Part shown: piece by piece, positions 2,946-27,232 of the stretch
Layout: each line of letters starts with the position of its first letter
Position numbering within the stretch: the first letter of the stretch is position 1
DNA from: Bacteroidia bacterium
GTDB taxonomy: Bacteria; Bacteroidota; Bacteroidia; Cytophagales; Cyclobacteriaceae
Direction: 5' to 3'
Assembly: GCA_030425425.1 (NCBI GenBank)
Contig: JAUIAO010000053.1
Span: forward strand, 1 to 43,962
Length of the DNA stretch: 43,962 nucleotides
Position numbers and translations under genes: made by a program
The notes under the pieces: model-generated
What the model was told of the DNA's origin: nothing
Seen by the model: the letters and a program-made list of their open reading frames with translations, nothing else
Database searches by the model: none

Positions 2946-2948
2946 TTC

Positions 2949-7375: not shown

Positions 7376-8365
7376 TTACTTCAGGTCATCTGGATTGACT
7401 ACAGGCCATCCATTATCATCCCAGGTCATTTCCATAATCTTAAGTTTTGATCTTCCATCATCTTGCATATCATAAGCATGAAAAACGAAATAATCTTTAC
7501 TATCAAATGAATAGGCACTGTTGTGACCTACACCTGGATATCTTTTATTTCCCTCCAGCACAAGTGAACCTCCTCCCTGATCCATTCTTACACCATTTTT
7601 ATCCAAGTATGGTCCGGTCACCTTATCTGACCTACCTACCACTACCTTATAAGTACTATTCTCTCCCCGGCAGCAATAATCCCATGAAACGAACAAAAAA
7701 TAAGAGGTGTCTTTTTTGAAAATAAATGGTGCTTCGATAGCTCCATCTCCTGGGTTGGTATCCAAAAGCGTATCTGTTCTGGCTCTTTTGGCCAAAGTCA
7801 ACCACTCCTGAGGCTCGGCCAATTTATCTCGATCGGGCACTAATTTGACCATTTTGATGCCTCCCCAGAATGAACCAAAATTCATCCACGGATAGCCGTC
7901 TTCATCCTGAATGATATTGGGATCTATAGCGTTCCAAAAATCACGATTTGGAATGGACTGAACAATCGGTCCATGATCTACCCATTTATAATCCGGATCC
8001 TTTGGATTCAAAGTGGTGTTTGTCACTAAACCAATAGCCGAAGTATTTTTTGCAAATGCAGACACACTATAATAGAGATAATACTGACCATTGTAAAAGG
8101 AAATGTCAGGCGCCCATATATGCCCTCTAAATCCAGTGACCACATCTTGTGTCCATTCTGGAGGTCGCCGGCCAAATACCGAAGGTTCTTTTTTCCAGGA
8201 TTCCATATCTGTGGAAGACCAGACCGATATTCCCCACCCTGTACAATAGAGATAATAAGTGTCTCCCTGCTTGATCATTACCGGATCATGAACGCCGATA
8301 TTTTTTTCCTGAGCCTTTACACTCCATGAGAACAAGACAATAAATACTAGAATTAGATTTTTCAT
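7376..8365 (-). CDS. GH43 arabinan endo-1,5-alpha-L-arabinosidase, secreted
   Basis: The protein has 329 residues with a signal peptide (MKNLILVFIVLFSWSVKAQ) and a single five-bladed GH43 propeller. The catalytic triad is visible: Asp27 in GVHDPVMI (base), Asp148 in NAIDPNII (pKa modulator) and Glu211 in GAIEAPFIF (acid); His296 in FVFHAYD fits the metal-site His of endo-arabinanases. VHDPVMIKQGDTYYLYCTG and GHIWAPDISFYNGQYYLYYS are characteristic of the endo-arabinanase subfamilies. It lacks a lipobox, so it should be periplasmic, or secreted if another route exists. It starts 14 nt after the second GH43 gene stops, so the two are co-transcribed. Endo- versus exo-action cannot be settled from sequence. 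Confidence 0.92.
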   Translation of the reverse strand: MKNLILVFIVLFSWSVKAQEKNIGVHDPVMIKQGDTYYLYCTGWGISVWSSTDMESWKKEPSVFGRRPPEWTQDVVTGFRGHIWAPDISFYNGQYYLYYSVSAFAKNTSAIGLVTNTTLNPKDPDYKWVDHGPIVQSIPNRDFWNAIDPNIIQDEDGYPWMNFGSFWGGIKMVKLVPDRDKLAEPQEWLTLAKRARTDTLLDTNPGDGAIEAPFIFKKDTSYFLFVSWDYCCRGENSTYKVVVGRSDKVTGPYLDKNGVRMDQGGGSLVLEGNKRYPGVGHNSAYSFDSKDYFVFHAYDMQDDGRSKLKIMEMTWDDNGWPVVNPDDLK

Positions 8366-8379
8366 TTTCTAAGCTTTTA

Positions 8380-9966
8380 TCACTCTACTTTTTTACCCCA
8401 ATGGGCTATTCCTTCAGTGGTAATTCCAGTAAACAGAATAGTTTCATCCACTTCATTTTCCCAGTCTCGCCCCCGCTCCACTTTGAGTTTGAAAGGCGCG
8501 GACTCACCATCAATATCAAAGGTAATCCACGGTGCGTCATATGACCATGTACCAGTAGCTGCACCTAATAGTGTCCCGTCGGACAAAATGAATAAATCTT
8601 CAGACGTCTGAAAATCAGGAGAAGTCTGTTCATCTGCATAACCGGGAACAATTTCATAATCCAGGATGATCCGCTCCCAGTTCCCAGGAATCTCGCTTTC
8701 ATCTACGGTAGTCTCTTCCTCAGCCGCAAATCGCTGTGGACTCACCATTGGCCAACCGTCCTCTGTCCAGTGAATCTGACGGACGTGTAATAACATATAA
8801 TAACTATTCACACCCGGACGCCCCTGATGAGCCATGTAAAAGTCTTTTGATTCCTGATCCTGAAATACCGATGGATGAGAAACACCCTGCCATCCTGAAT
8901 GCCCCTGAAACTTATAAGGAGCCAAAATCATCGGTAAGTCATCGATTTCCTGATTCATATTTCTACCCAGATAATCATAAAATGGTCCATCTGGATTATC
9001 GGACCTACCTACACGGACATTATACTTGGTCTGAAGCCAATCATAGGCAATGAACATATAATATTTATCGAATTCTTCATTGTAGATAATTTCCGGACCT
9101 TCGATATTTCCATTGATTGAATTTCCTGTGAAAGCTCGCTGCGCAACTCGCGTACCTTTAACTCCTGTTCTATTTGGCAAACCAGTCACAGGATCAAGCT
9201 CGATCTTATAAATCCCATCCCAGGCAGAACCATAATAGAACCAATGCGATCCGTCCGTACCCACTGTTACTGTTGGGTCGATAGCATTGGTCTGACGCGC
9301 ACTATTATTTAATGAAGTAACAACAAGCCCTCTTTCAGTAAAAGGACCATATGGTTTATCAGAAACCATCAGTCCAATAGCGCTCAGACGTGGAACAGAA
9401 GAAGATATTGAGTAATAGACCCTATACTCATCTTCATATTTCATGGCATATGGAGCCCAAAGGTTATTGAATGGTTCTCCTCCATTAGAACGGATATGAT
9501 CCAAACCTAAAGGAGGATACCCAGCATCAGAAATCTCACCAACCGGCAAATTATTACCTCCTACTACCCATCCTACAAACTCCCATTCAACCAGGTTTCT
9601 ACTTCTTCTGATATTATGTCCAGGACGAACAGTGGCTCCAAATGCTACATCTGTTGTATAGCAATAGAAATAATCTCCGTTATCGATTATAGTAGGATCG
9701 TGCACGTTGTAATGTGCCCAATCATAAATATTATTAACTGAAGATATGTGTGAATAGGTATCTCTGAATTGCGAGAAATCAATTGGATCATCATCCAAAT
9801 TAGATCCCAAGGTGTCGGTTGGGTCGTCATCTGTGTTATCCCGAACTGTAATTCCAGTTGGTTCGCTGACATCCTCACATGCAATGAACATTAAGGGTGA
9901 CAGGAAAAAACTGAATACTATGATCCTCAGACTACCTTTACTTATATAACTAGTTTTATCAATCAT
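8380..9966 (-). CDS. GH43 two-domain endo-arabinanase lipoprotein
   Basis: The 528-residue protein begins with a lipoprotein signal (Cys30 in FIAC), a flexible Asp/Thr-rich linker to about residue 65, a GH43 propeller at about 80-410 and a C-terminal beta-barrel at about 420-528 of the type seen in B. subtilis Abn2-like enzymes (PF16369-like; WERIILDYEIVPGY, TGTWSYDAPWITFDIDG). Catalytic residues are Asp90 (NVHDPTII), Asp230 (NAIDPTVT) and Glu289 (GNIEGPEI). The long acidic linker after the lipid anchor suggests exposure on the outer face, which would make this the enzyme that first cuts arabinan for SusCD uptake; the other GH43 would finish the job in the periplasm. Surface location is inferred. 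Confidence 0.92.
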   Translation of the reverse strand: MIDKTSYISKGSLRIIVFSFFLSPLMFIACEDVSEPTGITVRDNTDDDPTDTLGSNLDDDPIDFSQFRDTYSHISSVNNIYDWAHYNVHDPTIIDNGDYFYCYTTDVAFGATVRPGHNIRRSRNLVEWEFVGWVVGGNNLPVGEISDAGYPPLGLDHIRSNGGEPFNNLWAPYAMKYEDEYRVYYSISSSVPRLSAIGLMVSDKPYGPFTERGLVVTSLNNSARQTNAIDPTVTVGTDGSHWFYYGSAWDGIYKIELDPVTGLPNRTGVKGTRVAQRAFTGNSINGNIEGPEIIYNEEFDKYYMFIAYDWLQTKYNVRVGRSDNPDGPFYDYLGRNMNQEIDDLPMILAPYKFQGHSGWQGVSHPSVFQDQESKDFYMAHQGRPGVNSYYMLLHVRQIHWTEDGWPMVSPQRFAAEEETTVDESEIPGNWERIILDYEIVPGYADEQTSPDFQTSEDLFILSDGTLLGAATGTWSYDAPWITFDIDGESAPFKLKVERGRDWENEVDETILFTGITTEGIAHWGKKVE

Positions 9967-10008: not shown

Positions 10009-11544
10009 CTATTTAATTTCTAATACAACAACAGAAAATGGAGGTAATTCCACATTTAGATTATTCCCTTTTTTCTTGAATCCCTTGAACGCTTCTGGTG
10101 CAATCTTATCAGGATTCTCAAATGAATTATGATCCTGTAAGTTTCCTGATTTCAAAATTGTCCCAGTTGTTTTTCCTTTGGCATCAATACTCATCTCCAA
10201 TTTATGACTCTTTTCTGGATGGATGTTTACTAGAGAAATGTGAATAGCTCCATCATTATCCTTTGAAGCAGAAGCTGATATTGCAGGTAATTTTTCATGG
10301 CCATTCTCGAAATACAACATGTCAGAAATCTCTACTGGTAGCATAGTAGCATCCTGATGTACGTTGTACATTTTCATCACATGATATGTGGGTGTAAGGA
10401 TCATTTTCTCCTCATCTGTTAAAATCACCGCCTGTAGGACATTTATAATCTGAGCCAAGTTGGCCATTCTTACACGGTCCGCATGGTTGTGAAAAGTATT
10501 CAATGTAGTACCAGCGATCATGGCGTCTCGCATGGTGTTTTGCTGGTATAGTGCAGTCTGGTTCTCTGGAGTTTCATACCAGCCTCCCCATTCGTCTACG
10601 ATCAAAGCCACTTTCTTTTCAGGATCATATTTATCCATAATCGCGCTATGCTTTGTCACTAATTCTTCCATGTCCAGTGCATTTTTCATTGTAGTCCAAT
10701 ATTGATCTTCCGAAAAATCAACATCTGGTCCTTTGGCTCCCCAGTTGATCACTGCATAATTATGCAAGGCAACTCCTTCTAACATGTTGTGAGGAACATC
10801 ACGCATTAAAACTTCCGTCCATTTATAATCCCATTCGTTAGCTCCTGAAGCAATTCTAAACAACCCATCGCTATTCGTCCAGTCGGTCATGAATGTGGCG
10901 TATTGGCGATAAAGGTTTGCATAGAATTCTGGTTTCATGTTACCACCACATCCCCACATTTCATTTCCTACGCCCCAGTATTTGACTCCCCATGGTTCTT
11001 TTCTGCCATTGGCAATTCTCAGATCAGACATTGGACTACCTCCAGGATGATTTACATACTGCACCCAGTCAGAAAGTTCTTTTACAAGTCCACTACCAAC
11101 ATTTCCAGCGAGGTAAGGTTCTGCCCCCAGCTCTTCGCACAGATTCAAAAAATCGTGTGTTCCGAAACTATTATCCTCAATGGTACCTCCCCACCACACA
11201 TTGACCATTTGCGGTCTCTCCGATTTCGGACCTATTCCGTCCATCCAGTGGTAAGTATCCGCAAAACAGCCTCCAGGCCATCTCAGCACAGGCACTTTCA
11301 GATCTTTTAATGCTTCTATCACGTCTGTACGCACTCCGGCTTTATGCGGAATCAACTCATTGTCTTCACCTACATAAAAACCTCCATAGATGCATCTGCC
11401 GAGATGCTCAGCAAAATGTCCATAAATATTTCTATTGATCAAGTGTTCTCCACCTTCAACATCTACAGAAATGGAAGTAGTCTTTGGCTGGGCTATTATA
11501 GAAAAGCTCAGTACCAAACCGAGAAGAAAAGTTAGTTTTTGCAT
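10009..11544 (-). CDS. GH51 alpha-L-arabinofuranosidase, periplasmic
   Basis: The 511-residue protein has a short signal peptide (MQKLTFLLGLVLSFSIIAQ) and the classic compact GH51 form: an (alpha/beta)8 barrel followed by a C-terminal beta-domain. The acid/base Glu195 is in GVGNEMWGC and the nucleophile Glu318 in LIVDEWGGWY; NRNIYGHFAEHLGRCIYGG and LRWPGGCFADTYHW are strongly conserved family segments. These enzymes remove terminal alpha-L-arabinofuranosyl groups from arabino-oligosaccharides. It lies 42 nt before the GH43 lipoprotein gene and 95 nt after the other GH51 gene, a gap that contains a hairpin. Many relatives are intracellular; the signal peptide here points to the periplasm. Confidence 0.94.
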   Translation of the reverse strand: MQKLTFLLGLVLSFSIIAQPKTTSISVDVEGGEHLINRNIYGHFAEHLGRCIYGGFYVGEDNELIPHKAGVRTDVIEALKDLKVPVLRWPGGCFADTYHWMDGIGPKSERPQMVNVWWGGTIEDNSFGTHDFLNLCEELGAEPYLAGNVGSGLVKELSDWVQYVNHPGGSPMSDLRIANGRKEPWGVKYWGVGNEMWGCGGNMKPEFYANLYRQYATFMTDWTNSDGLFRIASGANEWDYKWTEVLMRDVPHNMLEGVALHNYAVINWGAKGPDVDFSEDQYWTTMKNALDMEELVTKHSAIMDKYDPEKKVALIVDEWGGWYETPENQTALYQQNTMRDAMIAGTTLNTFHNHADRVRMANLAQIINVLQAVILTDEEKMILTPTYHVMKMYNVHQDATMLPVEISDMLYFENGHEKLPAISASASKDNDGAIHISLVNIHPEKSHKLEMSIDAKGKTTGTILKSGNLQDHNSFENPDKIAPEAFKGFKKKGNNLNVELPPFSVVVLEIK

Positions 11545-11564
11545 AGTCTAGTTTTTAATTTAGA

Positions 11565-11600
11565 AAAAGAATGGACTCAGAGATTCTGAGCCATTCTTTT
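11565..11600. terminator. Strong hairpin between the two GH51 genes
   Basis: Arms AAAAGAATGG (11565-11574) and CCATTCTTTT (11591-11600) enclose a second stem CTCAGA/TCTGAG with a 3-nt loop and one bulged A. On the minus strand the stem ends in TTCTTTTTCT. It is positioned to stop or attenuate transcription after the lipoprotein GH51 gene. Confidence 0.75.
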
Positions 11601-11639
11601 GAAACAGTATGAAGAAGTATTACTATAATTCAATAATTA

Positions 11640-13658
11640 TTAATTCATTTTTATCCTGATCACATTAAATGATTGAGGACTTAGGTCCAAAGCAAACTCT
11701 GGCCCTGCGATTTCCACTTCTTTTTCCACAGGTTTAACCTGCTCAGGATTGTCGAAAGTATTGTAAACTTCCAGATCAGGCTGACTCAATTCAATGAGTT
11801 TTCCAGTCTTCTCCAGACTATTTACACCATCTACTTTGACCTCTGCAACTTGAGCAGATTTGAGTGTGTTAACCAACTTAATGATTAATTCACCTGTGTT
11901 TTCATCCTTGGTTGTGGAAGCATAAACCCCGTTCTGACCTGTTAAGGCATTTCCATCAGCTCCTGATGTCTGCAGTACGTGAGTTCCAGGATTGGTGGAA
12001 TACATTTTCTGCACGTAATAATTTGCCGTACCATAAGACTCCAAATTATTGAACCAAATTAAATCAGGTGTCCATTGCCAACCCTCAGCATGTGCAAATA
12101 ATGGTGCATAAGAAGTCATAGTTACCACTTCAGCATTTCTTTCCAGGCCAGTCATGAAGGCTGCTTCTGAAAGAGCTGTTTCCCAGTTGTTTTTATTATC
12201 CGGACTGGCAACCCCAACACTTTGGGAGGCATATTCTCCTACAAAAAGTTTAGGACCTTCACGATCATAATCATCATACCAATCTGCACTTTCACGGAAC
12301 CAATCAGGATTTCGGTAGAAATGTTCATCAACGATTTCAGGCTGCAATCTGCGCCACTGCTCCCACAGATATTCGATTTCTTCTTCTCCATTTGGAAAAA
12401 TCGACCCATCTGAGCCTGTAGCAGCTATGATCTGCATATCTGGATATTTACTCTTGATAGCATCTACTATTGGCACATATCTTTCGATGTATTGTGGCCC
12501 CCATTGTTCGTTTCCAATTCCCATCATCTTAAGATTAAATGGTTCCGGATGCCCCATATCAGCTCGTAGTTTTCCCCATTTGGTAAGTACTGATCCATTA
12601 GCAAATTCTATAAGATCCATAGCATCCTGCACATACGGATCCAATTCACTGAGTGGCACAAGTTCTCCAGTATTGAATTGGCACGCCATACCGCAATTGA
12701 TGATTGGCATTGGTTCGGCACCAAGATCTTCGGCCAACAAAAAGTATTCGTAAAATCCTACTCCAAAACTTTGGTAGTAGTCTGGTGTAGGACGATGGTC
12801 AAATTCAAAATTCCAACGATTGATGGTCACTACACGATCATCAATATCACCTACGGTATTCTTCCACTGATAGCGCTGTGAAAGATCAAATCCCTCAACA
12901 ATACATCCTCCAGGAAAACGTAAAAATCCCGGATCCATATCGTCTAGCAGCTGAACAAGATCAGCTCTAAGTCCTTTTTTTCTACCTTTCCAGGTATCTG
13001 TTGGAAATAGCGAAACCATATCAATATCCACAGCACCTGTACCCTCGAACCAAATATTCATTTGAGCTTTTGCCTCGGTTTTGGATGGTGTCAATGATGT
13101 TTCGAGTGTTTGCCACTCATTAGTAATACCGTTTACTTTTCCATCTGCGAGCACGTTTCCATCCGGGTCAACCAGCTCAATTCGAATAGCGGAGATGTTT
13201 CCTTCTACTCCTCTAACCTGTATACTAAAATCATGTGGCAAGCCTTCTTTTACACCCATGCCGCGGAAACCTTCGTTTCGAAGACCGGCACCAGATCCCG
13301 GATCGGTAATTTGGATTCGCATAAATCTGGAGTTCCTTGGATTTCCCGTATTGATCGGTAAAGTTCGAACTCCTAGTCCTTTATCTTTTAGCACAGTCCA
13401 ACCGCGCAATGGTTTATCAAATTCGAAAGATCGGTTTTTTACCAGTTCAGCATATAGTCCTCCGTCAATGGCAAAATTGATATCCTCAAAAAATATTCCG
13501 TACATAGTAGGTTGAATCGGAGCAATCACCTCTTTGGCATTTACCTTTATGGCCACAGACTCGCTTATTTGTTCCGTTGATTCCTCTTTTGGTGTACTAC
13601 AACCAAAAGCCCAAATCATACTAACCCCTATCAAAAATTGATTCGCTATTTTATTCAT
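11640..13658 (-). CDS. GH51 alpha-L-arabinofuranosidase lipoprotein with CBM-like insert
   Basis: The 672-residue protein is a lipoprotein (Cys20 in WAFGC). Residues about 85-215 (RGWTVLKDKGLG to IDMVSLFPTDTWKGR) form a jelly-roll carbohydrate-binding-like domain between the first strand (MYGIFFEDINFAIDGGLYAELVKNRSFE region) and the barrel. The acid/base Glu384 is in GIGNEQWGP and the nucleophile Glu475 in LFVGEYAS. It belongs to the larger GH51 type (B. theta and plant ARF-like), which removes side-chain arabinose from polymers or large oligomers. It is the first gene after the susD terminator. Having two GH51 forms, one anchored with a binding domain and one compact, suggests a split between polymer debranching and oligomer trimming. 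Confidence 0.94.
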   Translation of the reverse strand: MNKIANQFLIGVSMIWAFGCSTPKEESTEQISESVAIKVNAKEVIAPIQPTMYGIFFEDINFAIDGGLYAELVKNRSFEFDKPLRGWTVLKDKGLGVRTLPINTGNPRNSRFMRIQITDPGSGAGLRNEGFRGMGVKEGLPHDFSIQVRGVEGNISAIRIELVDPDGNVLADGKVNGITNEWQTLETSLTPSKTEAKAQMNIWFEGTGAVDIDMVSLFPTDTWKGRKKGLRADLVQLLDDMDPGFLRFPGGCIVEGFDLSQRYQWKNTVGDIDDRVVTINRWNFEFDHRPTPDYYQSFGVGFYEYFLLAEDLGAEPMPIINCGMACQFNTGELVPLSELDPYVQDAMDLIEFANGSVLTKWGKLRADMGHPEPFNLKMMGIGNEQWGPQYIERYVPIVDAIKSKYPDMQIIAATGSDGSIFPNGEEEIEYLWEQWRRLQPEIVDEHFYRNPDWFRESADWYDDYDREGPKLFVGEYASQSVGVASPDNKNNWETALSEAAFMTGLERNAEVVTMTSYAPLFAHAEGWQWTPDLIWFNNLESYGTANYYVQKMYSTNPGTHVLQTSGADGNALTGQNGVYASTTKDENTGELIIKLVNTLKSAQVAEVKVDGVNSLEKTGKLIELSQPDLEVYNTFDNPEQVKPVEKEVEIAGPEFALDLSPQSFNVIRIKMN

Positions 13659-13836: not shown

Positions 13837-15588
13837 TTAGTTTGCTATTGGGCGAACCTTGTATCCTTTGTCAAAGAATGCAGGTCCATTATCCTCATTC
13901 AAGTTCGCTGAGTTACCTACCAGATTAGGGTTGGCGTTCAGCGTATTTTGGAAAATTGGGAAATACTCATGTCCCGGATTGTAGTAATCATATGATGATG
14001 CATCTGCAGTAGCCGAGCTAAGTTCCTCTGTAGAAGCTGTACCGTCTAGCTTGTAGTAAGCATGCTCGGTGATTTGGTTTAATCGGCTAGCATCATAGAA
14101 GAATCCCCATCGCAGTAGATCAATTCCACGTCCGTTTTCACATCCAAATTCCTTAGGACGCTCCACATTAGCTATTTGCTCAAACAAATGATCTGCTGTA
14201 GGGAAGTCTGCAAGCTGAAGATCAGGCAATGCAACTCTTCTTCGCACTTCATTGATATAATCTATAGCTACTTGAGTAGGCCCATTGATTTCATTTTCGC
14301 ATTCTGCAGCTCTTAGGAGCACGTCGCTATATCTCATCAAACGCAAATTGACACCACATGTAAGTCCATTGTCAATAGACTCGTAAAGGTTATTTCTCGC
14401 ATTCGTGAATTTAGCAATAGAGATACCTCCCTGGGAGTTATTAGAAAGTGGCGTCTCTGTGATTTCCTGCTGATAAGCCATGTTTTTTCTTGGGTCACCA
14501 TTTGGATATGCGGCTGTACTCTGGTCTGTATAAGTGCTATACTCATCTTCATAAGTCACTAAGGTCCAGTACAATCTTGGATCCAACCTTCCATCAGTAC
14601 AAGTCTCATCTTTGAAGAGATTATACAACCAAGGAGAACCTGCCAGGTCACCCCAGCTTCCTAATTCCTGAGAAGCGTAGTTACTTTCTACTGCATGGCC
14701 CTGTGTTGCATCTCTACTGATATTGACTGGAGTCCATTCCTGATCCGTACCACCGGTACCATAATCCATAAATTGTACTTCAAATAAGCTTTCGAGATTG
14801 TTTTCTGTATCCTCTTTGAAGTTGTCACCAAAATCCGCCATCAATTCATAATGACCATAAGTGCCAGCAATGATGTCTTGTAGGATAGGATAAGCATCAG
14901 AATACTTCTGACGAAACATCAACGCTCTGGCTAAATAACCTGCAGCGGCACCACTAGTAGCACGACCGGCAGACCATTCTCCACCTTCGTCTCTTGTTGG
15001 CAATAACTGCATGGCTTCAGCTAAATCCAATTCTATTTGATCAAAGACCTCATCTTGACTATTGTTTGGTGCATAAAGTGATTCAATATCACCGTATGAA
15101 TCATAATCGGTGATCAAAGGTACTTTTTGGTAATATGTAGCCAGATTGTAGTAAGCCAACGACCGTAGAAATAGTGCCTGTCCTTTGATTTTATTGTATG
15201 CATCTTCTGACAAATCCACTCCGTCTACCTTAGATAAAACAAAGTTGGTTCGGTTCACCACATGGTAATTATCTCTCCATATCCACTCATCACCAATCCC
15301 GATTGTACCTGGAGAATTAAGATTATCATACTCCAAATACCACTGCTGTGAAGAATTCCAAACTTCGTCACCACGCACAGCGTCCATCGTGTAGCCTACA
15401 CGAGCGAAGGTTCCTTCCAATCTGATACGATTGTAACATGCAATTACTGCCTCCTGTAGCTCGGCCTCAGAGTCTCCAAAATCGAAGGTCGTCTGACTGT
15501 TCGGGTTTTGAACCTCCAGCAGATCATCACAGGCTGTGAAGCCTGCAATGAGTGCCAACATTATGAGAATTATATTTAATCTTTTCAT
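13837..15588 (-). CDS. susD: SusD/RagB-family outer-membrane glycan-binding lipoprotein
   Basis: The 583-residue protein has a lipoprotein signal (MKRLNIILIMLALIAGFTAC, Cys20) and the SusD fold: an N-terminal TPR-like helical part (YNKIKGQALFLRSLAYYNLA, ARALMFRQKYSDAYPILQDI) and a C-terminal RagB/SusD part (NLRLMRYSDVLLRAAECENE, YINEVRRRVALP, ENGRGIDLLRWGFFYD). It caps the SusC barrel and captures oligosaccharides. It follows susC by 30 nt, so they form a standard pair. The glycosidases beside it point to arabinan oligosaccharide as ligand. The specificity is inferred. Confidence 0.96.
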   Translation of the reverse strand: MKRLNIILIMLALIAGFTACDDLLEVQNPNSQTTFDFGDSEAELQEAVIACYNRIRLEGTFARVGYTMDAVRGDEVWNSSQQWYLEYDNLNSPGTIGIGDEWIWRDNYHVVNRTNFVLSKVDGVDLSEDAYNKIKGQALFLRSLAYYNLATYYQKVPLITDYDSYGDIESLYAPNNSQDEVFDQIELDLAEAMQLLPTRDEGGEWSAGRATSGAAAGYLARALMFRQKYSDAYPILQDIIAGTYGHYELMADFGDNFKEDTENNLESLFEVQFMDYGTGGTDQEWTPVNISRDATQGHAVESNYASQELGSWGDLAGSPWLYNLFKDETCTDGRLDPRLYWTLVTYEDEYSTYTDQSTAAYPNGDPRKNMAYQQEITETPLSNNSQGGISIAKFTNARNNLYESIDNGLTCGVNLRLMRYSDVLLRAAECENEINGPTQVAIDYINEVRRRVALPDLQLADFPTADHLFEQIANVERPKEFGCENGRGIDLLRWGFFYDASRLNQITEHAYYKLDGTASTEELSSATADASSYDYYNPGHEYFPIFQNTLNANPNLVGNSANLNEDNGPAFFDKGYKVRPIAN

Positions 15589-15618: not shown

Positions 15619-18600
15619 TTAAAATGAAAACTGTGCTCCAAACATGACTGATCTCGGAGATGGATACGAAGCATAGTTATAGCCAGGAGTGAAAGTACCT
15701 CCGGCAAAATCTACATTATACCCTTTGTATTTAGAGAAAATAGCCACGTTCTGACCAGTTACATAAACTCTTGCATTGGAAATTACATCACCGAAGAACT
15801 TGTCTGGCAAATTGTATCCCAATTGAATATTAGCAACCTTCAGATAATTTGCATTCTGAATGAATCGGCTACTAAACATGTCATTGGTAATAGATCCTGT
15901 GGTTTTGTAAGCCACTCTTGGCACATCAGTATTGGTGTTTTCTGGTGTCCATGCATCCAATAGTTCCACGCTTTTATTGAGCATACCATAGGAACTGCGC
16001 AATGTTACATCTACAAAATCCACAGCTTTGAATCCTGCAGCACCGAATGTCATGATGCTCAAGTCTAAACCTTTCCACTCAGCTCTCAGATTCAATCCGA
16101 AGTTATAATTTGCAAGTCCACTACCCAGGTAAGTTTGATCCAGGTTATTGATCGTTCCATCGTTGTTGATATCAGCATAAGCTACATCTCCAGGCTGTGC
16201 ACCAGGCTGTGTAACCAGATTTCCTTCCGCGTTTACACGGTTATCGATCTGATCTTGTGACTGAAAGATTCCTTCGTACACATATCCATAGAAAGACCCT
16301 ATTTCTCGTCCTATTTCTGATGCAGAATTACCATCCACCTGCTGAGCATTTAAAACTCCTAGTTTCTGAATTTCATTGTTCAGTGTAGAAAAGTTGGCAG
16401 ATACGTCAAATTTGACAGGTCCCTGGTCATAATGGTATTCCATTGTCACTTCCAGCCCAGAATTGACCATTGTAGCGGCATTCATTTTTACTCTATCATT
16501 ATCAAAACCTGATTGTATTGGTACTTGCACATCATAGTGAAGTCCTTCTGTAGTAGACTGGTACCATCCAATATTTACTTCTAGTTGGTTAGTAAACAAG
16601 CCTAAATCAATACCTGCATCAATCGTTTTCTTTCTCTCCCAGAAGATTCGCTCATTCACAAAACTTGAAAGTCCTGAACCTGTCACCTTAGTATTGGCAA
16701 AACTGTAAGAATAATCCAATCTCTGCATGGTTGCCATATAGTCATATGGTCCCAGGTTAGTAGTGTTACCTAATTCACCATAGCTACCTCTCAACTTGAA
16801 CAAGTTGATAACAGACTGAGAAACAGGGAAGAAACTCTCACGGTCCAAACGCCAACCAACGGAAGCCGAAGGGTAGATTCCCACATTGTCAGCTGGAGAC
16901 AGACGACTTGATGCATCTCTACGTACAGTAGCGGTCAGCAAATACTTTTCATCGAAATCGTAGAGAATACGACCCAAATATGAAAGGATATAGCTTTCGT
17001 TTTCATCACTAAATGAGGCTGTCTCGTCAGCATTGTTGAGCTGAAGATAATATGGCTCAGATAAGCTGTTACCAGTTGCTCTAAGGTTTCTATAGGTATC
17101 ATGCTGGAATGTTTGTCCAGCCAATAGATTCAAATGATTTCGTCCAAATTTTCCATCATAAGTAATCGTGTTTTCCACCAGGGAATTAGAATATTCCTGA
17201 TTTCTTCTGGTCAATACTTCATTGCTCTTAGTCAGATAGTTCGTAGTACTCTGAATAAATGCCGGCACGAATGAATAACTATTAACATTGGTCTTGTTAT
17301 AAGCCAGATTTAATTTGTAATCCAACTTGTGGCTGTTGTTCTGAAGGCCGAGCATTTCCATAATGTCTGCATTTACAGAACCAGAAGCCACCACGCGATT
17401 TACTTTAGCATTTCGCTCCAACAAATTGTTGGTCAGTAGTGGATTGGTCACACGAAGATCTCCATGTACCTCATCGTAATAAGTACCATAGCCATAAGAG
17501 TCATAAGAGTATTCTGATGCCGGAGATAGTAAACCATCCAACACCCAGGTTGATTCATCATATGCTTTGATAGATGGAGGCATGATCAATGCGGAAGCCA
17601 TTACAGGATACTGTGCTCCATACAATCCCTGCACATATTCATTAGCATTACTCAGAGACATATTGTCCTGATCACTGTGACTGTAAACAATATTCGTATT
17701 GAACTGAAGAAACTTTGCGTTCAGGGAATTTTTAAACCGAGCTGTGTAACGATCGAAGTTTGGACCTGCACCTACCATGGTTCCTTCCTGACCGAAGTAG
17801 TCCAATGACACATTATAAGTGTTATTGGCACCTCCACCGGAAAAGTTCAGGCTGTGATTCTGTCTTACACCAGTTTTGAAAACTTCGTCCTGCCAGTTCG
17901 TATTTACTACATTAGGATCGATATAATTTTCACTGTTTGGATCATATCCAGAAGGTACAGGTACACCACTGTTGTTAAATGCCATAGTGACATAATCAGC
18001 ATATTGTGTGGCATCCATTACTTCATAGATACCATCTTGTACTTTATCCAAACCTACATAGCCATTGTAGTCAATTTTCATTGGTTGGTTTTTTCTACCT
18101 GACTTGGTGGTAATTATTACTACACCATTTGCAGCTCTTGAACCATAAATTGCTGAGGCTGAAGCGTCTTTGAGTACTTGTAAAGATTCGATATCATTCG
18201 GAGAGAAATCACGAATGGAATTCATAATTACACCATCTACGATGTATAGAGGGTTGGTATTACCAAATGTACCGATACCTCTGATTCGAATATTAGGATC
18301 GGCGCCTGGCTGACCATCTGTAGTGATCTGTACACCAGCTACCCTACCCTGAAGCATGGTACTGATATTCGAATTGGATACTTTTTTCATTTCATCCGTA
18401 TCCACAATTGCTACAGAACCCGTCAAATCTACTTTACGCTGTTTACCGTAACCGATTACTACGACTTCTTCCAAACTGGTCAAATCCAACTCCAACGCTA
18501 CATCTACTTGAGATTGTGATCCTACCTGTATTTCTGAGGTAGCATAGCCTACAAATGAAACTACTAAAGTGGCTTCATCTCCAACTGTCAACTGGTATTT

Positions 18601-18810
18601 ACCATCGATATCTGTGATGGTACCATTATCTGATCCTTTCACCATCACTGTGGCTCCCGGAAGTGTCTCACCAGTAGAAGCATCAGAAATAACCCCACTC
18701 ACTTGTCTTTCCTGAGCGAATGATGTTGTTAATACTAGCGTTAGTATCGCACCCACCAGGTAGTTTTTGAAATTTGATATACCCATCAGGATTTTATATA
18801 AATATTTCAT
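15619..18810 (-). CDS. susC: SusC/RagA-family TonB-dependent oligosaccharide transporter
   Basis: The 1063-residue outer-membrane protein begins with a signal peptide (ending TTSFAQ near residue 33), then a carboxypeptidase-regulatory-like beta-sandwich (about 36-110; GVISDASTGETLPGATVMV), a SusC-type stretch EEVVVIGYGKQRKVDLTGS, a plug domain (GIGTFGNTNPLYIVDGV; ASAIYGSRAANGVVIITTK) and a 22-strand barrel ending in MFGAQFSF with the terminal Phe typical of barrel proteins. It imports oligosaccharides with energy from TonB. The gene lies between the surface-binding lipoprotein gene (22 nt upstream) and susD. There is no N-terminal sigma/anti-sigma signalling domain, so the ECF sigma factor upstream is not obviously controlled through it. 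Confidence 0.97.
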   Translation of the reverse strand: MKYLYKILMGISNFKNYLVGAILTLVLTTSFAQERQVSGVISDASTGETLPGATVMVKGSDNGTITDIDGKYQLTVGDEATLVVSFVGYATSEIQVGSQSQVDVALELDLTSLEEVVVIGYGKQRKVDLTGSVAIVDTDEMKKVSNSNISTMLQGRVAGVQITTDGQPGADPNIRIRGIGTFGNTNPLYIVDGVIMNSIRDFSPNDIESLQVLKDASASAIYGSRAANGVVIITTKSGRKNQPMKIDYNGYVGLDKVQDGIYEVMDATQYADYVTMAFNNSGVPVPSGYDPNSENYIDPNVVNTNWQDEVFKTGVRQNHSLNFSGGGANNTYNVSLDYFGQEGTMVGAGPNFDRYTARFKNSLNAKFLQFNTNIVYSHSDQDNMSLSNANEYVQGLYGAQYPVMASALIMPPSIKAYDESTWVLDGLLSPASEYSYDSYGYGTYYDEVHGDLRVTNPLLTNNLLERNAKVNRVVASGSVNADIMEMLGLQNNSHKLDYKLNLAYNKTNVNSYSFVPAFIQSTTNYLTKSNEVLTRRNQEYSNSLVENTITYDGKFGRNHLNLLAGQTFQHDTYRNLRATGNSLSEPYYLQLNNADETASFSDENESYILSYLGRILYDFDEKYLLTATVRRDASSRLSPADNVGIYPSASVGWRLDRESFFPVSQSVINLFKLRGSYGELGNTTNLGPYDYMATMQRLDYSYSFANTKVTGSGLSSFVNERIFWERKKTIDAGIDLGLFTNQLEVNIGWYQSTTEGLHYDVQVPIQSGFDNDRVKMNAATMVNSGLEVTMEYHYDQGPVKFDVSANFSTLNNEIQKLGVLNAQQVDGNSASEIGREIGSFYGYVYEGIFQSQDQIDNRVNAEGNLVTQPGAQPGDVAYADINNDGTINNLDQTYLGSGLANYNFGLNLRAEWKGLDLSIMTFGAAGFKAVDFVDVTLRSSYGMLNKSVELLDAWTPENTNTDVPRVAYKTTGSITNDMFSSRFIQNANYLKVANIQLGYNLPDKFFGDVISNARVYVTGQNVAIFSKYKGYNVDFAGGTFTPGYNYASYPSPRSVMFGAQFSF

Positions 18811-18832: not shown

Positions 18833-20563
18833 TTAATTTACGAGCACTAAATAGCAACCATCAACAGTAAGTGCTGTAGTCAAATCAGCGCTATCTACTG
18901 TCAAACCTGCATATTCCTGGAAGTGTGATGTGCCATTGGCATAAGTAACATCATAGCGCACATTCGCTGTACCATCACCATTATTTGTAACTGTGATTTC
19001 AAAATAAGCTCCATTAAGATTGGATGCCATAACACCAAAATCCCAATCATTCGTGGCAGTAGCTGAAGCATATCCATCTCCCCAACCGAAATTATCAGAA
19101 CGAACCACAGCGAATTCCGTCAAATCTGCTCTTCTAAGTATGGTTACCGGGCTGTTCCAGTTTGCTCCTTCTGTAGAGTAGCAATACAATTGGAAGACTT
19201 TGCTTTCTCCGGATGCAACAGTAAAATCATCAGAGTGATCTCCCCAGAAACCTGTAGATAGATCAGAGGCTCCTACTTGTGCTGTCCCTTTAGTCATATT
19301 TACAGGACAATCCACAGTTACAGTACTAGCAGCTCCCACATAAGAGATTACAGCATTTTGTGCTCCTTCTGCTGCTGGTATCAGTCCGAACTTCAGAGAA
19401 GTATTATCCATGATAGCAGATGAGCCATCAGAGTATGTGGCCGTCACCACAATTCCTGTTGTATCTAAGATCACCCCTACGGTATCTACAAAAAAGTAAT
19501 AGTCAGTGATATCAGGCAGAGTAGTGATTTCCAGACTAGCGACTGTATTCACTACATCTAATTTGTAGAAAGTAGAAACAGCCGGGCCATATGCACCTTG
19601 TTTGGTCATGCTGTAGGCTACACTTACTGTTTTCTCGCCCAATGTTGTCATATCAGGAACCACATTGAATGATAAATCAGCAGAATCAGCCTCAGCTGTA
19701 GAACCATCTTCGAATGTCACAGTAGCTACTGCATCTCCCCAGAAGTTTTCATTCCCGATTTCAACAATTGATGGAGAACCAGATATAGAAATAGATGATG
19801 CAAAAACATCTTCAACGGCAGTCACCTCTGATGGTAACAAATATGCTGACTCCATTTCGAAATAGCTGTTATCAGCTATCAAAAACACATTAAGATCTTC
19901 AACAGCAGATACTGGCTGATTATAAGTCATCTCCAGGGTGGTGCCATTGGTTCCTTCTGCCTTAGCTGTGACGAACACATAACCTGTAGCAGAGTGATCA
20001 ATATCAATGGTAATGTATGCTCCGTCCATTGTGGCTCGGAAATCATTCCAGATATCTTCATCACCATCTGTATCAGGGTAATTTTGTGAAATCAATCCAA
20101 GATCAAAGTCATCATTACCCCAACCGTACGCGTCAGATCGTAGCACAAAATATTCGGAATAATTATCGGCATCTCTGTCACCCGCTTCATTGGAAACAGC
20201 CATGGTCCAATTGTTCCAGTTATTTGCACTACCACCATTATGATTTATAAATTCGAGCCGCAATAACTTATTGGATGGTACAGCGAAATAGTCTGAAAAT
20301 GCTGTCCACCATCCAGAGCTATAATCTTCAGCTCCTACAATGGCAGTAGAGATATCAACAAATGTGGTGTCTCCAGTATCTATGGCAGCCTTTGCCGCTG
20401 CAACAGAATCTATCCTGTCTTGCAAGTCACTAGGGGCATCAATTTTGTAAACATCCAAATTGCCCTCACAACTAACCAAACCAAACGTCACTAAAACAAC
20501 AGCGTATAATGCACGCCATTTTAGCTTAGCTGTTTTCATAAAATTCAATTTATTTAAGTTCAT
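18833..20563 (-). CDS. Putative surface glycan-binding lipoprotein (SusE/F position, novel architecture)
   Basis: I do not recognise a named family. The 576-residue protein is a lipoprotein (Cys32 in FGLVSC); the start could also be the Met at residue 9. Residues about 76-240 and 430-576 are copies of one module: GAEDYSSGWWTAFSDYFAV aligns with GASDLSTGFWGDHSDDFTV, and YFVLRSDAYGWGNDDFDLG with FAVVRSDNFGWGDGYAS followed by DWDFG. Between them lie two Ig-like domains (about 255-340 and 341-425; ATVTFEDGSTAEADS, VTATYSDGSSAIMDN). The Trp- and Gly-rich modules suit sugar binding. It is the first gene of the susCD transcript, so it probably works as the surface glycan-binding protein, although such genes usually follow susD. 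Location and role are inferred. Confidence 0.7.
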   Translation of the reverse strand: MNLNKLNFMKTAKLKWRALYAVVLVTFGLVSCEGNLDVYKIDAPSDLQDRIDSVAAAKAAIDTGDTTFVDISTAIVGAEDYSSGWWTAFSDYFAVPSNKLLRLEFINHNGGSANNWNNWTMAVSNEAGDRDADNYSEYFVLRSDAYGWGNDDFDLGLISQNYPDTDGDEDIWNDFRATMDGAYITIDIDHSATGYVFVTAKAEGTNGTTLEMTYNQPVSAVEDLNVFLIADNSYFEMESAYLLPSEVTAVEDVFASSISISGSPSIVEIGNENFWGDAVATVTFEDGSTAEADSADLSFNVVPDMTTLGEKTVSVAYSMTKQGAYGPAVSTFYKLDVVNTVASLEITTLPDITDYYFFVDTVGVILDTTGIVVTATYSDGSSAIMDNTSLKFGLIPAAEGAQNAVISYVGAASTVTVDCPVNMTKGTAQVGASDLSTGFWGDHSDDFTVASGESKVFQLYCYSTEGANWNSPVTILRRADLTEFAVVRSDNFGWGDGYASATATNDWDFGVMASNLNGAYFEITVTNNGDGTANVRYDVTYANGTSHFQEYAGLTVDSADLTTALTVDGCYLVLVN

Positions 20564-21192: not shown

Positions 21193-24100
21193 TCATGCAT
21201 TAAGTGAATCCACAAAAGCCTTGGGAGATTGGTTAAAATGCTTACTAAATATACGAGAGAAGTACTTGGGATCATTGTATCCTACTGCATATGCCACTTC
21301 CGAAATATTCATCGAATTCTCTTGAAGAAGGCGACGAGCCTTTTTCATTTTTAGGTGATTGATAAATTCCGCAGCGGATTGATCGGTAAGGCCGGTCAGT
21401 TTCTTGTGCAGCAAACTCCTACTAATCCCCATTTCGTCAACGAACTCCTTCACACCAAAACTGGAATCATGCATGTACTGACTAACAATTTCCACGGCTT
21501 TTTCCAGAAATTTTTGATCTTTACTATTAGTAGTCACCTCTCCCACATTGAGATCTGAAGCCTGAATAAACATTTTTCGTAGTTTCTGATGGGTCTCGAT
21601 GAAATTCTGAATTTTAACCTCAAGCAAATCAAAATTGAAAGGTTTTGGTAAATAATCATCAGCACCTATCTGAAGCCCCTCCAGCTGATCTTCCACAGCG
21701 CTTTTCGAGGTGAGAAGCACCAGCGGAATATGACTGGTTACAAGATTCCCTTTGAGATTTGCACAAAGTTCCAGACCGTCCATTTTCGGCATCATCACAT
21801 CACTAATCACAATATCGGGGCTTTGCTGATGTGCCAGCTGTAAGGCTACTACGCCATTTTCAGCTTCTATGACATTATAGCGCTTTCGCAATCGGTGCGT
21901 GATGAAGTTGCGCAGATCATGACTGTCTTCCACCACCAATACCGTGGCCTTTTCCTTATCGATTACAGGTTCTTCTTCCAGCTGATGACTTTCAGGAGTC
22001 ATAAACTCGTTTTTCAAAACTTCAATCTGCTGAAGAATATCCGTAGGCTGAATATCAGGTTGATTTTCAGATTTCAACTCATGACTACTGCTAAGCTCTG
22101 GTACTTGCACTTCAAAAACGGAACCCTTTCCTGGATGACTATCCACATAAATTTCTCCGTGGTGTGTTTTCACCAACTCCTCAGTAATGGCCAAGCCTAC
22201 GCCAGAGCCACTTATTTTAAAGGCTTCTTCTGATTCGATCCTGTAAAACCGCTTGAAGATCAATGGAAGATTCTCTTCACTGATCCCAATCCCTGAGTCA
22301 CAAATTTTAAAACTAATAACAGAGGATGTAGGGTATTCGACAGCTGTAGACTTGGGCAGCCGTGAACCCTCAATCTCCATACCCTCGATTTTAAGCTCTA
22401 CCAATCCGCCTTTTGGTGTGTATTTAAAAGCATTAGATAACAAGTTGTAAATGATATTCTCTAGCTTCTGAACATCTACCCAAATAGCTTCAGGAACATT
22501 TTTTTCAGAATAATCGAATCGAATTTCTTTAATTTCCGCCAAAGGCTGAAATGCGCTGTACAGTCCTTTGATAAACCTGGAAATATCTACTTTCTGAGCA
22601 TGCAGCTCCATTCTGCCTTTTTCAATCTTTCTGAAATCCATGATCTGATTGATCAGATAAAGTAGCCTATGTGCATTCCGCTGCATGACCTGAAGTGTGC
22701 TGTTGACCTCCGAGTTTAAATGATATTCCTTCAGTAACCTCTCCAGTGGGCCAATGATCAATGTAAGCGGAGTTCTGAATTCATGACTGATATTGGTGAA
22801 AAAACTCAGCTTCAGCTGGCTGACCAGATTGAGTTTTTTATTAAGGTTTATAACCTCATCTCTTTGATTGAGTATTTCTTTATTCTGGCTCTCTAACTTT
22901 TCGTTCTGACCGGCAATGAGTTTTTGATTAGCTTCTAATTCTTCGTTTGTATTTCTTAGCTGAATAGCCTGGAATGAAAGCGCTTCTTTTTGCTGGTTAA
23001 TTTGCTCAGTCCGTTCATGCACTTGCTTCTCCAGATGAATCTTCTGTCGTTTCAGTGTATAAGTTCTGAATCGAATATATGCCAAGACTATAGCCACCAA
23101 TGCTATTAACAATAGTCCTCTAAAAAGTGGGGTTTCCCAAAATGGTGGAGAAATAGTGATCACCAATTCTCGTGAAGGGCTGTTAAAAACTCCGTCATGA
23201 TCAGAAGCTTTCACCTTAAAAGTATACGATCCAGGTGTAAGGTTAGTATAGCTGACATATCTCCTCTCTGCAGAAACGTTGTTCCAATCTTTTTCAAATC
23301 CCTCCAGGATATAAGCATATTTAATAGGTTCATTATCCTGATAATTGAGTGCGGCGAATTCCAGCCCAAACATCTTTTCTTTGTAAGACAAAAAAACCGT
23401 ATCTACGAGAATCACATTCTGCTTTATGACCTCTTTTCCATTGTACACTTGATTTGGCACCACGGATTCATTAAGAAGTTTCAAATCAGTAATGACCACA
23501 TTGTGCGCATCAAATTGTTGATTGATGTCCTTAGGAAAAAATGCATCCATTCCTTCCATTCCTCCGAAATACAACTTTCCATCGCTATTTTTATAGGAAG
23601 CTGACCAATAATACTGATTGTTAAGGAATCCATCACCTGCGTAATAATTCCTGAATTTTCGATTTTCCTGATCAAACCGAGTAAGCCCATAATCAGTACT
23701 CATCCATAGGTTTCCACTATCGTCTTCCTCTATGGCATATACGATGGTATTACCCAGTCCATCCTGAATTCCAAAATGTTCGAACCAAACTGAATCTGAA
23801 GAGGTATTCAGTTTATTCAATCCATGTCCATAGGTACCAAACCAAAGCTGACCCTCAGAATCTTCCAGCATGGAGAGAATGTAATCTCCACTGATCGAAC
23901 CTGGCTGATCAAATTCATATTGATATTCGACCACCTCATAATCAACCATATCCCTATTTTTTGGCCTAATGCGAAACAATCCATTTCTGGTTCCAATCCA
24001 TAAATCCCCATTTGAATCAAACATCAAACAACCGACCTGGTCGATTATCACACCATTCTCATCCTGAAAAACTGGAGTGAATCTTTCAGATCTAACATCG

Positions 24101-25575
24101 AAATATGATATACCATTTAAAGTACCGATGTAAAAATTACCTTTCTGGTCTTTTTCAATAGATGATATATAGTTGCTTATCAGTCCATTATTTTGCTCAG
24201 TATTATAGTTTCTAAAAAGTCCTGCTTTCTGATCCATGAGATGCAAGCCTGCTCCCCAGGTGGCTACCCATAGCCTATTACTATAATCCTTAGTAATTAC
24301 TGAGACAAAATCCCCCATTAACCCTTGATTGTTCTCATGATCATTCTGATAAATTGTAAACTGACCTGTTGACTTTTCATATTGATTGAGTCCGCCACCT
24401 GCTGTCCCTATCCAGATGTAATCATGGTCTTCAAAAATAGAATTCACTGCGCTCGCACTTAATGAATTAATATCATCTGTTCGTTGATAATAATGCTCAA
24501 TTCTGTTTTGATTGACAGCAAAAAAATTCACTCCTCCTCTATCTGTACCTATCCAAATATTCTTATCTCTGTCCTGATATATGCAATTGACAAAATCATT
24601 ACTCAGGCTGTGGTCGTTATTCAGTTCATTTTTATAAAAGGTAAAAGCTTCAATGTTCGGATTCATCACGCCTATACCTCCCAATGTTCCCACAAAAAGT
24701 TGATGCGGTTCTATCTCCAAAATATCCGTCACAGTATTATGTGGTAAGGAAGAGGCGTCTTCTTCCTGATGAAAAAAACGTCGGAATTGCTCAGTGTTTC
24801 TGTCGAACTTGTTTAATCCATTTTCTGTACCAACCCAGATATCTCCACCAGGAGACTCATAGACCTTCATTATCTGGTTAGAAGAAATAGAATGAGCATT
24901 AACAGGATCATTTCTGAAAGATATAATGTCATTTTTCCTCATGTGATATAATCCATTGTCTGTACCTATCCAATAAGTATGATCAGCACTTTGAATCAAA
25001 TCAGTAACCTGAGTACCGGAAAATACGGCATCCCTCCTTCTGAGAGGTAAATGATGAACCAGACTCAAATTGGCCTGTGCATCAATCGAAAAATTAGATA
25101 CGCCCAGGTCTGAACCAATGATGAGGTGTGAATCTTCAGAAAATGTAATTGCTCTCACGTCAGGCACCAGTAGATCACTGCCTGGAATTTCCCCGGCATA
25201 ACTTCGAAAAGTGTTATGTGCATAGTGATAGGCAAATAACCCCTGATTTGTAGCAATCCAGATATTACCAAATTGGTCTTCCGCTATATCTCTAATAAAA
25301 TTTGTTCTGATGGCTAATTCGAAATCATCAAAAACTTCAAAATCATAGCCGTCATACCTACAGATCCCATTCCAGGTTCCAAACCACATAAATCCATGAG
25401 AATCCTGCCATATGCAATCAACAAGGTTTTGAGGCAATCCGTCAGACGTATCCAGGTGTAGAAAATTTTTGGACACAGTCTGTGCATTTGCATGACCAGC
25501 TACCCAAAATATCAATGAAAAAATGACTGTGCGTGTGATACTTTGCCAAACGTATACCAATCTGGATTTGTACAT
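21193..25575 (-). CDS. Hybrid two-component system sensor/regulator (HTCS)
   Basis: One 1460-residue polypeptide combines sensor kinase and transcription factor. Order: signal sequence (about 1-32); periplasmic two-component propeller repeats (about 38-690; many copies like GDIWVGTENGLNKFD); Y_Y_Y domain (about 750-810); one membrane helix (about 818-835); coiled coil (about 840-920); HisKA with His931 in FFTNISHEFRTPL; HATPase (Asn box NIIYNLLSNAFKYT, ICDSGIGIS, GSGVGLAI); receiver domain (about 1210-1325, Asp1259 in VISDVMMP, Lys1311); AraC-type DNA-binding domain (about 1355-1460). Such proteins bind an oligosaccharide in the periplasm and switch on their own utilisation locus. The flanking genes predict an arabino-oligosaccharide signal. 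All key catalytic residues are present. Confidence 0.97.
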   Translation of the reverse strand: MYKSRLVYVWQSITRTVIFSLIFWVAGHANAQTVSKNFLHLDTSDGLPQNLVDCIWQDSHGFMWFGTWNGICRYDGYDFEVFDDFELAIRTNFIRDIAEDQFGNIWIATNQGLFAYHYAHNTFRSYAGEIPGSDLLVPDVRAITFSEDSHLIIGSDLGVSNFSIDAQANLSLVHHLPLRRRDAVFSGTQVTDLIQSADHTYWIGTDNGLYHMRKNDIISFRNDPVNAHSISSNQIMKVYESPGGDIWVGTENGLNKFDRNTEQFRRFFHQEEDASSLPHNTVTDILEIEPHQLFVGTLGGIGVMNPNIEAFTFYKNELNNDHSLSNDFVNCIYQDRDKNIWIGTDRGGVNFFAVNQNRIEHYYQRTDDINSLSASAVNSIFEDHDYIWIGTAGGGLNQYEKSTGQFTIYQNDHENNQGLMGDFVSVITKDYSNRLWVATWGAGLHLMDQKAGLFRNYNTEQNNGLISNYISSIEKDQKGNFYIGTLNGISYFDVRSERFTPVFQDENGVIIDQVGCLMFDSNGDLWIGTRNGLFRIRPKNRDMVDYEVVEYQYEFDQPGSISGDYILSMLEDSEGQLWFGTYGHGLNKLNTSSDSVWFEHFGIQDGLGNTIVYAIEEDDSGNLWMSTDYGLTRFDQENRKFRNYYAGDGFLNNQYYWSASYKNSDGKLYFGGMEGMDAFFPKDINQQFDAHNVVITDLKLLNESVVPNQVYNGKEVIKQNVILVDTVFLSYKEKMFGLEFAALNYQDNEPIKYAYILEGFEKDWNNVSAERRYVSYTNLTPGSYTFKVKASDHDGVFNSPSRELVITISPPFWETPLFRGLLLIALVAIVLAYIRFRTYTLKRQKIHLEKQVHERTEQINQQKEALSFQAIQLRNTNEELEANQKLIAGQNEKLESQNKEILNQRDEVINLNKKLNLVSQLKLSFFTNISHEFRTPLTLIIGPLERLLKEYHLNSEVNSTLQVMQRNAHRLLYLINQIMDFRKIEKGRMELHAQKVDISRFIKGLYSAFQPLAEIKEIRFDYSEKNVPEAIWVDVQKLENIIYNLLSNAFKYTPKGGLVELKIEGMEIEGSRLPKSTAVEYPTSSVISFKICDSGIGISEENLPLIFKRFYRIESEEAFKISGSGVGLAITEELVKTHHGEIYVDSHPGKGSVFEVQVPELSSSHELKSENQPDIQPTDILQQIEVLKNEFMTPESHQLEEEPVIDKEKATVLVVEDSHDLRNFITHRLRKRYNVIEAENGVVALQLAHQQSPDIVISDVMMPKMDGLELCANLKGNLVTSHIPLVLLTSKSAVEDQLEGLQIGADDYLPKPFNFDLLEVKIQNFIETHQKLRKMFIQASDLNVGEVTTNSKDQKFLEKAVEIVSQYMHDSSFGVKEFVDEMGISRSLLHKKLTGLTDQSAAEFINHLKMKKARRLLQENSMNISEVAYAVGYNDPKYFSRIFSKHFNQSPKAFVDSLNA

Positions 25576-26551: not shown

Positions 26552-27232
26552 ATGCCCCCACAGTATCAAGATCAAACTCACATTCTACTGGCTGTTGACT
26601 GTATCATTTTTGGATTTGACAATGAAGAACTTAAGCTACTCTTGATCAAAAGGGATTTCGAACCGGAACGCGGTAAATGGTCTTTGATGGGTGGTTTTTT
26701 ACAGGATAGTGAAAATACTGATATGGCTGCAAATCGTGTACTCCAGAGGCTCACTGGAATACATAATATATATATGGATCAGGTGGGTACTTTTAGCGAT
26801 CCGAGACGGGATCCTGTGGAAAGAACAGTATCAGTAGCCTATTATGCTCTCATCAATATTGAGCAGCACAACGAGGAGCTTTCCAGAGAACACTCGGCCG
26901 AATGGTTTAGCTTATCAGATGCTCCGCCGTTGATTTTTGATCATGGAGAAATGGTAAGACAGGCTATCAACAAACTTCGTCAAAAAGCTTCCTCACAACC
27001 GATAGGATTTGAGCTTTTACCTGAGAAATTCACCATGCGTCAGCTTCAGAAACTTTATGAGGCAATTCAGGGACAAGAACTGGACAAACGAAACTTTTCA
27101 AAAAAAATCAATCAACTCGATGTATTGACCAAGCTGGACGAAAAAGACATGACATCCAGTAAAAGGGGTTCCTATCTCTTCACCTTCGACAAAGACAAAT
27201 ACGAAATCAGCCGTAATAAATTCTCCATATAG
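26552..27232 (+). CDS. araR: AraR, Nudix-like arabinose-responsive transcriptional regulator
   Basis: The 226-residue protein has an N-terminal Nudix fold (about 10-140; AVDCIIFGFDNEELKLLLIKR, GKWSLMGGFL) and a C-terminal winged helix (about 150-226; LLPEKFTMRQLQKLYEAIQG, RNFSKKINQLDVL, SKRGSYLFTFD). The Nudix box is broken: the helix carrying the catalytic REUXEE reads RVLQRLTG, so the metal-binding glutamates are gone and hydrolysis is not expected. This is the architecture of NrtR-family regulators, including AraR of Bacteroides thetaiotaomicron, which represses arabinose genes and is released by L-arabinose. The arabinan locus next door supports that role rather than NAD control. It is divergent from the locus and probably acts on araBDA through the palindromes described here. 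Confidence 0.88.
   Translation: MPPQYQDQTHILLAVDCIIFGFDNEELKLLLIKRDFEPERGKWSLMGGFLQDSENTDMAANRVLQRLTGIHNIYMDQVGTFSDPRRDPVERTVSVAYYALINIEQHNEELSREHSAEWFSLSDAPPLIFDHGEMVRQAINKLRQKASSQPIGFELLPEKFTMRQLQKLYEAIQGQELDKRNFSKKINQLDVLTKLDEKDMTSSKRGSYLFTFDKDKYEISRNKFSI

Follow-up and report, generated by a model that had tools for sequence, protein, structure and literature searches.

What does a lipoprotein with two Trp/Gly-rich (W/G) modules contribute to the bacterium that encodes it directly before susC, and do its modules belong to a family that already carries a name? The window, meaning the whole stretch of 43,962 nucleotides from a Cyclobacteriaceae bacterium that was analyzed, contains what is by gene content an arabinan locus, because an HTCS regulator, a SusC/SusD pair, GH43, GH51, and GH127-like enzymes, araA, a ribulokinase, and an AraR-like repressor are combined in it (Table 1).

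The arabinan locus and its lipoprotein gene

The SGBP-type lipoprotein gene ends 22 bp from susC. Among the enzymes, the GH43 protein encoded at 8380-9966 had the BT0367 endo-arabinanase model as its nearest match, with a score of half the cut-off (400 of 800 bits), and neither GH10 nor GH53 was found among the proteins scanned in the window locus. Separately, the first of the GH51-type enzymes (11640-13658) gave a CBM_4_9 match just below cut-off (24.4 of 25.9 bits).

Table 1. Coordinates of the lipoprotein gene, its parts, and the surrounding arabinan locus in the window
Feature	Position	Strand	Basis
SGBP-type lipoprotein gene, 576 aa	18833..20563	-	ORF; probable start Met9 (20539)
Signal peptide and lipidation Cys32 (lipobox LVSC)	20468..20563	-	sequence reading
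N module, residues 72-237, with acidic DxDxDx[DN] loop	19853..20350	-	profile, 198 bits
Two Ig-like domains, about residues 250-340 and 341-424 (approximate bounds)	19292..19816	-	Big_3 in relatives; AlphaFold secondary structure
C module, residues 426-574	18842..19288	-	profile, 190 bits; model pLDDT 96.7
SusC/RagA TonB-dependent transporter	15619..18810	-	TIGR04056, 801.9 bits
SusD homologue	13837..15588	-	PF07980
Two alpha-L-arabinofuranosidase (GH51-type) genes, 11640-13658 and 10009-11544	10009..13658	-	PF22848, PF06964
Two GH43 genes, 8380-9966 (with GH43_C) and 7376-8365	7376..9966	-	profile matches
GH127-type beta-L-arabinofuranosidase	4840..7278	-	PF07944
Arabinose catabolism: ribulokinase 2949-4607, class II aldolase/AraD-like 2244-2945, arabinose isomerase (araA) 656-2155	656..4607	-	profile matches
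HTCS hybrid two-component regulator	21193..25575	-	Reg_prop, Y_Y_Y, HisKA, Response_reg, HTH_18
NUDIX/NrtR-type AraR repressor	26552..27232	+	NrtR_WHD, NUDIX, AraR_C above cut-off

A close parallel is found in B. thetaiotaomicron, for which excerpts of the published accounts describe BT0365 as the arabinan SGBP with BT0364/BT0363 as SusC/SusD (PMC8002723, a review), place the arabinan genes BT0365 to BT0360 under a promoter before BT0365, the first gene of the operon (PMC5061871), and report an induction of BT0365 by arabinan of more than 4000-fold (PMC3404733). Like BT0365, also a lipoprotein, the window protein is encoded by the first gene of its operon in an arabinan locus, flanked by HTCS and susC. 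The invariance of M9 and K10 in a four-row alignment with relatives suggests that translation begins at Met9 rather than Met1, and a lipobox-like motif is present in most relatives too. With its lipobox and an adjacent susC/susD pair in a polysaccharide locus, the protein most likely counts, by function, among the SGBPs and falls outside both the SusE family and the LamG-type SGBPs.

A duplicated module without a name in Pfam or NCBIfam

The sequence-only reading had described a lipoprotein in which two copies of a W/G module flank two Ig-like domains, and this anatomy was borne out. Both modules are W/G-rich and related, sharing 29% identity (BLASTP E 5e-15), and their local alignment score of 139 was equaled by none of 2000 shuffles, which had a mean of 36 and a largest value of 79; the profile scores and the model agree (Table 1). 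The Big_3 match of the window protein itself is weak and below cut-off (E 0.14), Big_3 scores above the Pfam cut-off in L009, L064, and L100 (all three non-hybrid family members scanned), and the AlphaFold model has two beta-domains between the N and C modules. This model of the mature protein reached a pLDDT of 90.6 with a pTM of only 0.53, so the arrangement of the domains is uncertain, and the proposal that the Ig-like pair forms a rigid spacer finds no support in it.

The C module taken alone was modeled as nearly all beta with a pTM of 0.91. A Foldseek search of it against the PDB returned no chain at E ≤ 1e-3, the best matches lying at E 0.009 to about 0.03 with query TM-scores of 0.26-0.42 and including Toxoplasma M2AP, an alginate lyase, legume lectins, and a SPRY domain. 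Such weak and mixed neighbors (galectin-like, legume lectin, SPRY, with hot-dog thioesterases also frequent among the matches listed) permit a guess, from the predicted model, that the module may be a lectin-like beta-sandwich. The full protein gave 12 matches at E ≤ 1e-3, all long, poor alignments with query TM-scores of at most 0.16. A resembling situation is known from the arabinanase AbnA of Geobacillus stearothermophilus, whose beta-sandwich, CBM-like domains were proposed as new CBM families according to an excerpt of that report (PMC9110388). The W/G module had no sequence match among PDB chains, and the AbnA structure 5ho0 matched the full-length model at an insignificant Foldseek E of 6.6e-3 (probability 0.21) and was absent from the 50 matches listed for the module.

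Sequence searches of Pfam, NCBIfam, and the PDB supplied no family name for the module. Comparison of PDB sequences with the single protein and the two profiles yielded nothing convincing (best E 0.25, none, and 0.75, respectively), an NCBIfam scan of 45 modules gave no match, and a Pfam scan of the same number hit two families with one stray member each, Fn3-like (7e-4) and Glyco_hydro_79C (7e-3), neither of them a CBM. No CBM profile in Pfam or NCBIfam matched the module. SusE and SusF are starch-binding PUL lipoproteins with repeated beta domains. Unlike them, the window protein has no PF14292 match, and membership in the SusE family was rejected for this reason; in the whole genome, PF14292 matched once, on contig C94 and not at this locus. 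A match to SusE or to a known CBM, which the sequence-only reading had named as an outcome that would overturn it, was in this way found neither for SusE nor among the CBMs of Pfam. Laminin_G_3 was likewise not detected in the window protein, and homology of the module to LamG was given no support by comparison with the LamG profile (probability 0.4%).

In the literature, titles and abstract openings among the matches listed held no description of the W/G module, which is weak evidence of absence. Excerpts of reports on other arabinan loci (PMC9655821, PMC10405439, PMC7939548) make no mention of this protein, and CBM112 is, in an excerpt of its description, a mannan module (PMC13357471).

Conservation within the module is concentrated in few positions. 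Across the 45 modules, R63, D65, and W69 (C-module numbering) are invariant and G6, D9, E58, G70, and G119 nearly so, while 49 family proteins share invariant R142, D144, R488, D490, G493, and W494. The kept aromatic residues, among them W85, W86, W116, and W148 as well as W440 and W494, would fit a sugar site, of which they are no proof. A module tree, obtained from a single FastTree run on 69 chosen modules that leave out the L080 fusion, L150, L151, and most family members, united all 26 N copies with the enzyme-fused modules of L081 and L086 and both L107 modules in one clade (0.972), and all 26 C copies with three middle copies in another (0.989). Adjoining the N clade are the fused modules of L085 and L147 and those of L099, and the placement of modules from GH53 and large proteins is weakly supported. 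One duplication before the family spread would explain the separate N and C clades. Of the 80 N modules, 54 have the acidic loop DxDxDx[DN], which is absent from every C and middle module of these 80 proteins; as a sign of a calcium loop, this pattern is no more than suggestive. Because the clades are separate and the loop differs, N and C may be two different sites. The duplication of the module stands, and the notion of two equal copies is too simple.

Family distribution and exchange with LamG domains

A family scan of named genomes found 142 relatives, the best 80 of which were retained and gave 77 loci; genera represented include Marinoscillum, Reichenbachiella, Draconibacterium, Marinilabilia, Proteiniphilum, Paludibacter, Prevotella, and Segatella. 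The full protein is present in three of 59 near genomes: that of the window and two others from its genus. In loose first looks that may miss relatives, 29 of 301 genomes in the family of G449, probably of Bacteroidaceae type, had relatives, and 2 of 395 genomes, the window's own included, did so with both A1 and A4. In its own genome, the module profile detected this protein alone at E ≤ 0.001, and a third, partial module match (E 0.0086) fell within a reading frame of 4373 aa on contig C37.

The layout and the position before susC, which had been taken as unusual, turned out to be the normal form of this widespread family, and the position was dropped as an oddity: susC lies directly downstream, on the same strand and within 600 bp, in 65 of 77 loci, and BT0365 is likewise placed. 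GH43 is directly downstream in three loci, and nine gave no call (six of these with less than 3 kb of contig left); susD is directly upstream in 6 of 77. Where 8 kb or more of downstream sequence was available (56 loci), the fetched stretch contained a GH43 arabinanase relative in 55 cases, L077 being the exception; where the upstream flank had this length (also 56 loci), an HTCS match was found there in 45. The order susC, susD, SGBP, GH43 is found in L009, L084-L086, L100, L101, L155, and L156. An excerpt on S. copri describes an arabinan-induced operon (NQ544_10425-10440) with GH43_4, SGBP-B, SusD, and SusC (PMC11784079), the same make-up as in L009, L084, and L086, which carry the W/G family; SGBP-B is likened to the family by this make-up, and in this order the SGBP follows susD, unlike in the window.

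Two modules were counted in 78 and three in 6 of 84 proteins (the window protein, 79 from the family set, and four added), a few of which are cut by contig ends and one of which (L070) is broken. The three-module members differ in arrangement, as in L155:9038-10960, L156:8098-9975, and L064:10007-12436. At L070:914-3373, the SGBP is accompanied by a second module-bearing frame that is interrupted and reads as two frames (464 and 355 aa), which probably reflects a broken copy or an error of assembly.

Aside from SGBPs, the module is attached to carbohydrate-active enzymes. It is C-terminal on GH43 proteins of L080, L081, L085, L086, and L147, among which L081, L085, and L086 show GH43 and GH43_C by Pfam and L080 was identified by BLAST alone. 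The GH53 galactanase L153:7356-11375, on the reverse strand, bears two W/G modules and one LamG domain. Large proteins of 966-2004 aa in L148, L149, L150, L151, L152, and L154 have one W/G module each, some together with DUF4859 or Flg_new_2 (L150 is open at the stretch end), and neither SusC nor GH43 was found near them in the fetched stretches. Because of its presence on GH53 and on these large proteins, the ligand of the module may be wider than, or other than, arabinan, and may include pectic galactan in the case of L153. Judged by this distribution, the module would behave as a CBM.

The place of BT0365 was located through its published promoter site, and the species correspondence of the matching genomes is inferred; the site occurs in three of 149 genomes of one genus, exactly in G872 and with two mismatches in G747 and G800. 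Behind it, L114 encodes a lipoprotein with three Laminin_G_3 domains (Pfam), which L115 and L116 resemble by eye, and the family profile matched none of the ORFs of L114-L116. The position is that of the window gene, but at the BT0365 slot, known here through these promoter-site counterparts, the encoded protein has three LamG domains and lacks the W/G module. Twelve arabinanase loci were fetched for comparison of this slot. LamG-only proteins lie between HTCS and susC in L103, L106, L108, and L110; one LamG domain is joined to two W/G modules at the BT0365 place in L099 and L107 (below cut-off in L099); the full-length family follows susD in L100 and L101; HTCS leads directly to susC in L109; and L102, L104, and L105 end before susC. 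The N-termini of L099 and L107 are 36% and 34% identical to that of L114 (E 1.6e-48 and 4e-54), which, with the slot comparison, indicates that W/G modules occupy the places of further LamG domains in related proteins. Four more proteins combine LamG with two modules (L118, L132, L133, and L141, below cut-off in L133), giving six hybrids, for two of which (L099 and L107) the locus order was read.

A candidate AraR operator was also considered. GTGT-N7-ACAC, with the spacing of published BtAraR sites in an excerpt of PMC4666351, lies between HTCS and the SGBP gene, 271 bp 5′ of the first ATG of the latter. Three copies occur in the window (20834-20848, 35428-35442, and 42887-42901) against a chance mean of 0.51, a number reached in 2 of 100 shuffles. 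Within 450 bp upstream, however, the motif was found in 2 of 77 relatives (L061, with its short upstream stretch, and the L070 fragment being excluded) compared with 11 of 2905 control stretches. As a conserved feature it was rejected, and no evidence is drawn here from AraR sites.

Predicted function and competing explanations

The gene is very probably that of a surface arabinan-binding SGBP of an arabinan utilization locus, carrying two divergent, undescribed CBM-like modules. In this role the protein would be anchored in the outer membrane through its lipidated cysteine, and its two all-beta CBM-like modules, separated by the Ig-like domains, would capture arabinan, or else pectic side chains rich in arabinose, bring the bound arabinan to a surface GH43 endo-arabinanase, and hand its fragments to SusCD. 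Surface exposure, glycan binding, the arabinan ligand, and the cooperation of the two modules are all points that we infer. An arabinan-related binding role is favored because of the locus context, the GH43 and GH53 fusions, and the domain exchange with LamG. The sequence-only idea of an undescribed arabinan-binding fold survives in this form, as arabinan-related predicted glycan binding by a duplicated and unnamed module, and loses the argument from gene position.

Going further, we lean slightly toward the module founding a new CBM family that recognizes pectic side chains rich in L-arabinofuranosyl residues. One duplication before the spread through Bacteroidota would then have produced two types that form non-equivalent sites: a C type, and an N type that often has an acidic loop, possibly for binding calcium, and whose clade takes in two GH43-fused modules and one LamG hybrid. 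Such modules would be exchangeable with LamG in the same operon slot, probably with the substrate unchanged.

The choice of ligand is the point at which an alternative comes closest to the data. The modules could serve a glycan binder that mainly takes up some other pectic side chain (type I arabinogalactan/galactan or RG-I) or arabinoxylan in place of arabinan, as might be expected from their presence on GH53 and from the response of rumen arabinan loci to pectic galactan as well, described in an excerpt of PMC11107044. This is unlikely, given that the window pairs GH43, GH51, and GH127-type enzymes with arabinose catabolism and that GH43 accompanies nearly all relatives with enough flanking sequence, whereas GH10 and GH53 were not among the proteins scanned. 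That the modules bind no glycan at all and act as scaffolding or docking domains, joining the SGBP to SusCD or to a surface enzyme, is quite improbable: although the module is common to the SGBPs and the GH43 proteins from loci of one kind, it is also found on GH53, in large proteins without SusCD in the fetched stretch, and in hybrids at positions taken up by additional LamG domains in L114-type proteins, and its kept aromatic residues would suit a sugar site. A SusE/SusF-family or LamG-type SGBP that has diverged past profile detection would share the functional slot, including the position after susD seen in eight loci of the family, but is very improbable indeed in view of the lack of a SusE match in the protein, the location of the sole genomic match on another contig, and the negative comparisons with Laminin_G, with the LamG profile, and with the ORFs of L114-L116.

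With arabinan binding as the preferred function, a family of many gut and environmental Bacteroidota that lacks a Pfam or NCBIfam domain name gains a testable role. If confirmed, the module could serve as an arabinan probe and as a marker of arabinan loci, and the exchange of LamG for W/G at one locus position would offer a clean case for binding-module swaps in polysaccharide utilization loci.

Elsewhere in the window, type IX secretion sorting domains (Por_Secre_tail or CHU_C) were observed on three large proteins (27377-30490, 32303-36520, and 37475-40309), and a PorP/SprF gene lies at 31038-32120.
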